A stretch of DNA of 32,643 nucleotides from the NCBI GenBank assembly GCA_030655835.1, contig JAUSPC010000205.1, positions 1-32,643 on the forward strand, written 5' to 3'. The stretch's first letter is position 1. The number at the start of each line of letters is the position of its first letter. The position numbers and the translations under genes were made by a program. This DNA is from Pelolinea sp. Lineage in GTDB: Bacteria > Chloroflexota > Anaerolineae > Anaerolineales > Anaerolineaceae. Under the pieces are notes generated by a model. The model was given only the letters and a program-made list of their open reading frames with translations, did not search any database and was not told where the DNA came from. This document shows, in pieces, positions 15,942 through 32,552 of this stretch.

Positions 15942-16598
15942 TCAATTGTCGAAACCGAAAATCAACCTCACTTCACGCGGTTCGCCCAGAGCACTGAGCG
16001 CTTCGATCAGGTTTGTGACCAGCGGTGCGCTTTCCCGCAGTGGTCGTTGCCATTCCATGGATACCCAATCAGGCAGCGAGCTGAAACCTGCTGCCGTGTT
16101 GGGTGGTTCTCTGTTTTCCTTCCAGCGTCTGGCGGCTTCCGGTGATACCTTGCCCCGCAAAGTGACAGGCGCCTCCAGGTCATAATCCAGAAGCTCTTGC
16201 AGCGTAACCCATGAAAAGGAATGTTCACCCAGAGAAATATATTCCGGTTCCTTATCATCCAGCCATTCATCATTATCCGGCCATTTATCCGCTTCCTCCT
16301 CTTTACGCAGGTGTTCACGCAGTTCCTCTGACAGATCTTCGGGAAAGCCGCGCGGATAGCTGATGGGGATGACCGGATCGCCGCTGTCCATTCCGGCGAA
16401 TGTATACCCATTGCGCACATCTGCCAGAATAGCGAAGGCGCGGTAGTTGCGATAAGTCGGCAGGTCAGCATTCGCCAGATGCCAGAGCCCATCTTTATAA
16501 ACCTCTGCTGCCAAATGGATATCAGTACCCCTATGATTTTCTTTCGCTGCGTTCACTTGAGAATCATATATTTCCAATGTAATTATATGCGCCTTCAT
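15942..16598 (-). CDS. Hypothetical protein (218 aa)
   Basis: Long open frame with acidic, protein-like composition: MKAHIITLEIYDSQVNAAKENHRGTDIHLAAEVYKDGLWHLANADLPTYRNYRAFAILADVRNG. No family assigned. Confidence 0.7.
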   Translation of the reverse strand: MKAHIITLEIYDSQVNAAKENHRGTDIHLAAEVYKDGLWHLANADLPTYRNYRAFAILADVRNGYTFAGMDSGDPVIPISYPRGFPEDLSEELREHLRKEEEADKWPDNDEWLDDKEPEYISLGEHSFSWVTLQELLDYDLEAPVTLRGKVSPEAARRWKENREPPNTAAGFSSLPDWVSMEWQRPLRESAPLVTNLIEALSALGEPREVRLIFGFDN

Positions 16599-16688
16599 CC
16601 TCTTCTGGATAGTGCCGAAGGTCTTTTCCTGAACTCACCGCGTATGATCTTATATGCGAAATGACGCACCCCGTAGATCACTTCACGA

Positions 16689-17034
16689 GAAGTGATCGGA
16701 GGCACTCGACCAGAAGCGACGTCAGGTCGCCATCAGGTCGTGTGCAAGAAGCATGCTTCACAGAAGTATATTTCAAGAGAAATATACGGATGCAAGTCCA
16801 GAGCGAAGTGCGGGGATACTCACGCAGAACGAATGTCAAGTAAGTATCTGCGTGGGTAAGGGAAGTGATCGGAGGCACTCGACCAGAAGCGACGTCAGGT
16901 CGCCATCAGGTCGTGTGCAAGAAGCACACTTCACAGAAGTATATTTCAAGAGAAATATACGGATGCAAGTCCAGAGCGAAGTGCGGGGATACTCACGCAG
17001 AACGAATGTCAAGTAAGTATCTGCGTGGGTAAGG
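16689..17034. repeat. Tandem duplication of a 173-bp structured unit (two copies, partial divergent third)
   Basis: Copy 1 16689-16861 and copy 2 16862-17034 read as identical except 2 substitutions (gcaTGctt vs gcaCActt). Both begin gaagtgatcggaggcactcgacc and end ctgcgtgggtaaggg. Confidence 0.93.
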
Positions 17035-17046
17035 GAAGCGTGAGGA

Positions 17047-17103
17047 GGCCTGTCCAGAGCGAAGCGCCTGCCCTGAGCGCAGCGCCTGCCCTGAGCGCAG
17101 CGT
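17047..17103. repeat. Short GC-rich direct repeats (CCTGCCCTGAGCGCAGCG family)
   Basis: gcctgtccagagcgaagcg / cctgccctgagcgcagcg / cctgccctgagcgcagcg in tandem. Confidence 0.75.
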
Positions 17104-17104
17104 A

Positions 17105-17128
17105 GGGGTAGGGGTAGGGTAGGGTGGG
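17105..17128 (+). other. G-quadruplex motif
   Basis: GGGG-TA-GGGG-TA-GGG-TA-GGG-T-GGG: five G-tracts with 1-2 nt loops. Confidence 0.8.
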
Positions 17129-17708
17129 ATACTCGGTCAGAGGTTAGATCCTTCTACCATCTGACCAAGTACTTTAAGCTGCCATCAGGACGGGTAAGGC
17201 AATCGCGAAGTACCCTTCAGGGCAAACCTGCGACTAACAGGAGTCCCCGCAGGGGAAACCTACTGACTATAGTCCCCTTCTGGGGATTAAGAGTTATCCT
17301 CGATTCACTCTATCCTGTATATAGTCTCTATTATGTCTACAGAGTGACAAATGGTGGGGAAAAACTGTCTATTGTGTGATTTGCGCAGCGAAGCGGAGTC
17401 CCATCTTCTCATGGGACCTGCCACCTTTAGGTGGTTTCTATAGTTTCTACTCAGGTCGCACCATGGTTGCACCATTTGCATTAGAAGGAAGGGCAACTTG
17501 ACACATTACTTATCGGTCGCTTCATCGGTAGTATCTATTTGCTTTACCTATGAATTCCGCCATCGTTTTATTCAGATCGGCGCCCTTTGCAATGCAATGG
17601 TGCGCGGTATCCAGGATATGCTATACACTTTGGGTATCAAAAATACATCAGATTGCAATTGTTAGCATTTATCTATGCATTTATTACCATCTTTGAGATT
17701 TTCAAAAA

Positions 17709-32108: not shown

Positions 32109-32552
32109 CTACCCCGGCGGTGTCCCTTTCCCTGATCCCAGTCTTTTTTCCACATTGACCTCCCGCAGCGCCCCTTCCAACGCGCTCATGAAACCCTCTC
32201 GCTCGCTTTCTTCTTTCGTGGGCGCCTTCCCCGGCTTTGCGTGCCCCTGCAGTCCCGAGATCCGCAGCACATACATTGCGGTTTTGAGTTTCGTTGGTTC
32301 GTCCCCGTGCACCAGCGCTTTCCGCACCACCTCGATCGCCATCTCAACCAACTCGGTCAATGAGTCCATATGCTTGTCCCGAACCTGCGCCCGCCGTTGC
32401 TGCAGCTCCATGATAAAATCCGCATCCTGGTTCCTCCAACGGCTGATCGTTTGCCGCGCTGCCCCCACCCGCTCCGCGATCTCCCCGTCCGCCATCCCGC
32501 TCAATATCAGGTCAATTACTTTCTCTTGTTTCGGGTTGATAGAACTTTTCAC
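32109..32552 (-). CDS. Phage terminase small-subunit-like HTH protein
   Basis: NPKQEKVIDLILSGMADGEIAERVGAARQTISRWRNQDADFIMELQQRRAQVRDKHMDSLTELVEMAIEVVRKAL: HTH plus alpha-helical region typical of phBC6A51/terminase small-subunit-like proteins. Confidence 0.7.
   Translation of the reverse strand: MKSSINPKQEKVIDLILSGMADGEIAERVGAARQTISRWRNQDADFIMELQQRRAQVRDKHMDSLTELVEMAIEVVRKALVHGDEPTKLKTAMYVLRISGLQGHAKPGKAPTKEESEREGFMSALEGALREVNVEKRLGSGKGTPPG

Follow-up and report, generated by a model that had tools for sequence, protein, structure and literature searches.

The window, a 32,643-nucleotide stretch of contig JAUSPC010000205.1 from a Pelolinea sp. genome, carries two adjacent, near-identical 173-bp copies without indels (TRF period 173, score 686). 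The copies differ at only two positions, T16754/C16927 and G16755/A16928, and copy 2 is followed directly, at 17035, by a diverged third start, GAAGCGTGAGGAGG. An earlier note on this DNA had described these features together with two motifs, GTATATTTC-AAGA-GAAATATAC (16766-16787 and 16939-16960) and TACTCACGCAG...CTGCGTGGGTA (16817-16858 and 16990-17031), and all of them were found as described. The region also lacks a credible coding sequence, as had been claimed, with no ORF of at least 90 amino acids across 16599-17708. The two base differences would make it less likely that the assembly had simply repeated one identical sequence. The array is flanked by a 218-aa ORF on the minus strand (15942-16598) without a Pfam match, and an 18-bp tandem repeat, GCCTGCCCTGAGCGCAGC (17048-17102, 3.1 copies), adjoins it and is partly common to contig C94 of the same genome.

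The duplication is real in the sequence, but the 173 bp that had been taken as the size of the structured unit are the length of a local duplication; the unit that recurs is a two-hairpin element of about 75 nt. Read on the plus strand, this head-to-tail doublet runs GNAG-HP2 (9 bp, 4-nt loop)-GNAG-HP1 (18 bp, 5-nt loop), where HP1 comprises 42 nt with 18 pairs and the spacer between HP1 and HP2 is fixed at 5 nt. The two motifs named above are HP2 and HP1 of one such element, here with a longer, 29-nt linker. The unit was reached by aligning the shared part, which gave hairpins with differing yet pairing stems; from these an HP1-only covariance model (R1) was built, and the flanks of its matches revealed HP2, which is included in the two-hairpin covariance model (R2). 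The first HP1 alignment was assembled by hand from known copies, and our conclusions rest on the later alignments and on non-carrier genomes as controls. The features of the window are as follows.

16662-16670, minus strand: TGACGCACC, the reverse complement of the tRNA-Lys 3' end GGTGCGTCA; one border of an interrupted attachment-site relic
16670-16744, plus strand: complete first element in tag register, R2 78.8 bits (model match on the minus strand), with GTAG 16673-16676, HP2 16676-16697, GGAG 16698-16701 and HP1 16703-16744, tags on the plus strand
16689-16861, no strand: 173-bp tandem copy 1, beginning in the second arm of the first element's HP2
16766-16787, plus strand: HP2 of the second element, copy 1, preceded by GAAG, R2 19.3 bits
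16817-16858, plus strand: HP1 of the second element, copy 1, R1 55 bits
16862-17034, no strand: 173-bp tandem copy 2, departing from copy 1 at 16927 and 16928
16876-16917, plus strand: HP1 of the first element, copy 2, R1 63.5 bits (R2 43 bits over 16849-16917)
16939-16960, plus strand: HP2 of the second element, copy 2, R2 19.3 bits
16990-17031, plus strand: HP1 of the second element, copy 2, R1 55 bits
17130-17171, plus strand: further, diverged HP1 outside the 173-bp copies, R1 55.6 bits, followed by half an HP1 at 17181-17197
17255-17510, minus strand: decayed attachment-site block with a GGTGCAA motif, ACANAATAGACA direct repeats and tRNA-Lys pieces
17257-17295, minus strand: ACTCTTAATC and CAGTAGGTT, pieces of the tRNA-Lys anticodon arm with a small hairpin between them (locus L056 is split at the same place)
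32109-32552, minus strand: helix-turn-helix (HTH) protein resembling a phage small terminase, co-distributed with the element

One 173-bp period spans two elements, and the junction falls inside an HP2, at a shared GAAG. Because the junction cuts this hairpin, the HP2 of the first element is reduced to one arm in copy 2 (16862-16870). The stretch has been doubled recently and is bounded by the 4-bp microhomology GAAG; slippage or microhomology between the two GAAG sites, aided by the hairpins, may have produced the duplication, which would not itself be a transposition unit. Within its own genome the 173-bp sequence matches only partially, on contigs C69 and C94, in both cases next to tRNA-Lys or a tRNA-Lys fragment, and at the DNA level it has no match in 100 relatives. 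It was therefore rejected as a genome-wide repeat.

The pairing of the element is kept while the stem sequences change. In the 82 aligned R2 matches, an alignment fitted to the model, covariation is 0.536 compared to 0.188 in shuffled alignments and at most 0.104 with slid partners, and all 27 base pairs have compensatory double changes. Among 20 ungapped units of equal geometry aligned with MAFFT, 24 of the 27 pairs are changed on both sides, 90.7% of the cells are paired, and covariation reaches 0.694 (0.255 in shuffles, at most 0.194 with slid partners). RNAalifold, unaided, recovers both hairpins.

In about 54 of 57 copies a GNAG stands at the foot of each of the two hairpins. It precedes HP2 in 54 and is in register before HP1 in 43, most of the remaining HP1 tags being displaced by 1-2 nt. 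Exact GTAG in register is less frequent (12 copies for HP2, 10 for HP1), and degeneracy in positions 2 and 3 of the GTAG tag is accepted (PMC3733652). Many of the invariant alignment columns are tag bases. Since R2 includes the tag columns, the tag count is partly selected; the HP1-only model excludes the HP2 tag, yet 25 of the 26 units listed for it carry this tag.

The RNA fold of the 173-bp unit lies 6.5 SD below dinucleotide shuffles on both strands alike, so that folding energy alone gives no choice of strand. From the single wobble pair in one stem, it had been argued that a plus-strand RNA would pair better. At the family level this guess is weakly borne out: G.T pairs on the plus strand outnumber A.C pairs by 95 to 41 in 1907 cells, which come from non-independent copies and of which one column supplies 25 of the 95, and the GNAG tags stand at the plus-strand 5' feet. 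Both observations suit a single DNA strand equally well as a plus-strand RNA. The plus strand is thus mildly favoured as the folded strand. The minus strand, which the orientation of the tRNA had suggested as the working strand, was dropped once the tags were located on the plus strand.

The units are dispersed and in tandem in one genus plus one other lineage, and are mostly intergenic. R2 copies number at least 17 in the own genome (G000), at least 24 in G001, at least 30 in G002 and at least 31 each in G003 and G031; the counts are lower bounds, with 33 candidates per genome scored by R2. G000 to G003 are all four genomes of this genus, while G031 belongs to another genus of the same family, and R1 also detected HP1 in these five. 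The 142 other genomes of the family gave one strong R2 match, in G157, one weak match, in G112, and no more. A 400-kb sample of G003 contains 13 matches, which are clustered, and tandem arrays with a period of 75-79 bp are present in G002 and G003. According to a simple ORF caller, 39 of 58 units lie clearly between ORFs of at least 100 amino acids and the remainder mostly within short, possibly spurious ORFs; the orientations are mixed, and divergent gene pairs seldom flank the units. No shared neighbour gene or consistent gene neighbourhood was found around them. Pattern scans returned no viral matches, and two genome matches, in apparent coding regions of unrelated bacteria, were treated as chance.

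Sequence comparisons bear on mobility. One unit, together with a few additional bases, breaks up a homologue of the HTH gene on contig C69, and the copy in the window (32109-32552) is uninterrupted. Near-identical units of G003 agree for approximately 10 bp on the upstream side and for a few bp on the downstream side, beyond which their flanks are unrelated. The interruption and the unrelated flanks, along with the mostly intergenic placement of the units in mixed orientations and the C203 case described below, appear to indicate movement of a small unit.

The HTH protein is confined, among 61 genomes, to four of the five carriers and is absent from the 56 other relatives. On contig C203 another HTH homologue starts directly at the end of a unit, and at five of about 11 places of the HTH gene (L062 and L245-L249 among the loci) an element lies inside the gene or within about 1.1 kb of it. 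No relatives of the protein were found in viral contigs. We regard the protein as a candidate partner of the element, which is a weak lead: the gene and the element may both simply reside in the same mobile regions, and the members of the genus are not independent.

We consider it likely that the 173-bp finding belongs to a REP-type family of mobile DNA hairpins, which are small and non-autonomous. Like REPs of the GTAG superfamily, the element is a short, palindromic, mostly intergenic stem-loop structure whose 5' foot bears a tetranucleotide tag (PMC3733652, PMC2817692, PMC8266576); it occurs in tens of copies per genome (at least 17 to 31 in each of the five), clustered as well as single, with paired stem changes and a limitation to a genus or a few species. 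It differs from them in its tag, GNAG with a free second base instead of GTAG, and in being a doublet of two unlike hairpins, head to tail and at fixed spacing; known REPs seldom form head-to-tail doublets (PMC3733652). With REPINs it has in common a doublet as the dispersing unit and compensatory stem changes, but the REPIN doublet is a palindrome that forms one large hairpin, whereas here the two hairpins fold separately (PMC3116915, where the SDR of Nostoc is also mentioned). The tags of HP2 and HP1 are on the same strand, so that the element is not a pair of inverted REPs.

REPs of the GTAG superfamily go with the TnpA-REP transposase, or RAYT (PMC3733652, PMC2817692, PMC8266576). A RAYT association was sought and not found: no Y1 transposase (Y1_Tnp/RAYT) is present in the carriers G000 and G002, and R2 elements are missing from the roughly 2 kb on either side of the RAYT-like genes of G001 (L251) and G003 (L253). 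The carrier genomes are about 91-96% complete, so that the absence of RAYT from them is not final. Most genomes without the element possess a Y1 transposase. Classical GTAG repeats of another kind, for example GTAGGTCACACATTCCTGTGTGAC, border the RAYT-like gene of G003 and make up a second REP system of the genus, unrelated to the present element. Because of the degenerate tag, the unlike head-to-tail hairpins and the missing link to RAYT, we name the element REP-like, and not a RAYT-mobilised REP or a REPIN. The Nostoc SDRs of Elhai et al. 2008 are reportedly similar in being very small, structured, nested, limited to one clade and marked by compensatory changes; at 21-27 nt, apparently with no paired tagged hairpins and with a suggested RNA intermediate, they are said to be otherwise unlike the present element.

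If the element is indeed REP-like mobile DNA, a putative enzyme would recognise the tag and the folded single plus strand and copy or move the units, on the model of TnpA-REP/RAYT acting on classical REPs. RAYT transposases are the usual explanation for REP-like repeats; here the REP architecture, with a very strongly conserved structure and signs of movement, is found in genomes without any RAYT that can be linked to it. A new class of miniature mobile DNA, in which unlike GNAG-tagged head-to-tail hairpins are served by a non-Y1/RAYT enzyme, perhaps together with the small-terminase-like HTH protein, is conceivable, and we put it forward tentatively. With a defined 75-nt substrate, five carriers and about 140 element-free genomes of the family, what moves the tagged hairpins is directly testable.

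Could the hairpins instead act as RNA? A structured noncoding or cis-regulatory RNA family, duplicated here, whose plus-strand transcript folds HP2 and HP1 and binds a protein, would account for the very strong covariation, the fixed geometry and the excess of G.U over A.C (95 vs. 41). We nevertheless judge it unlikely, since no Rfam family matches above its gathering score, orientations are mixed without a common neighbour gene, and there are many copies per genome, some in tandem and one within a gene. Wobble pairs make up only about 5% even on the better strand, with roughly a quarter of them from a single column, and Watson-Crick swaps are far more numerous than such intermediates. The earlier note had left the choice between a noncoding RNA and the substrate of a hairpin-recognising enzyme; the latter fits the tags, the dispersed and tandem copies, the interrupted gene and the covariation, while the former has found no positive support, and a DNA hairpin substrate is favoured. 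One Rfam candidate, P37, was rejected at 20 bits, far under its gathering score of 50.

We regard as quite improbable a reading in which template-switch (quasipalindrome) mutation keeps the DNA palindromes perfect, and slippage and recombination alone spread them, with no dedicated enzyme. Such a process would be expected from paired changes that are almost all Watson-Crick, from the 4-bp microhomology at the duplication in the window and from the frequency of tandem arrays, but it leaves unexplained why both hairpin feet carry GNAG, why the 5-nt spacer and the loop lengths are constant, how units reached unrelated sites and how one came to interrupt the HTH gene. The units are probably mobile, as read from sequence comparison; against this, palindrome-correcting mutation could also produce paired changes.

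By sequence comparison, the units of the window sit inside a tRNA-Lys attachment-site relic, beside GGTGCGTCA. On the minus strand, 17510-17255 contains tRNA-Lys pieces in order, and GGTGCGTCA then follows at 16670-16662, as judged by comparison with the tRNA-Lys of contig C94 and with loci L003, L056 and L054; the order of the pieces is the same in L056 and L054. The attachment-site block has seven further matches on other contigs of its own genome and related copies in four related genomes. Ordered 3'-end pieces and arm-type direct repeats, as in tRNA-associated attachment sites, belong to this host site and not to the hairpin element. Since such blocks, and fragments of tRNA-Lys, are also present in places that lack the element, the elements seem to have been inserted later, and we read the site as a probable decayed attachment site with hairpin elements inserted into it. 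That the array is instead part of an integrative element's attachment site at tRNA-Lys, its hairpins being recognised by the tyrosine recombinase, is very improbable: the units of the window, C94 and G001 do lie within tRNA-Lys 3'-end repeats, and in G001 a tyrosine-recombinase gene, the element and tRNA-Lys stand together in an intact integrase-tRNA-Lys arrangement, but for most of the other units retrieved there is no tRNA gene nearby, and the blocks and fragments exist without the element. A search of the own genome for integrases gave no match on C101 and hence no integrase gene beside the site in the window. As REP-like insertions, the units of the window show structured repeats accumulating in decayed tRNA attachment sites.

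A small CCC..GGGGAC hairpin splits the tRNA-Lys anticodon-arm piece at the identical point in two genomes, in the window (17257-17295) and in L056 of G003; L054 of G031 carries a different hairpin, which lies in the T arm. At a tRNA 3' end in E. coli, the 178-bp repeats of tyrT, with the rtT RNA, form a tandem array of about the same repeat length as the 173-bp unit; every copy there includes the tRNA 3' end, whereas the 173-bp unit lacks it. Downstream of tRNA-Lys, several genomes of the family (L077, L087, L089, L095, L100, L079) carry additional copies of the tRNA 3' end, in some cases in tandem, whose T arm contains a small insertion, often a hairpin, an arrangement which we take to recall the tyrT repeats.
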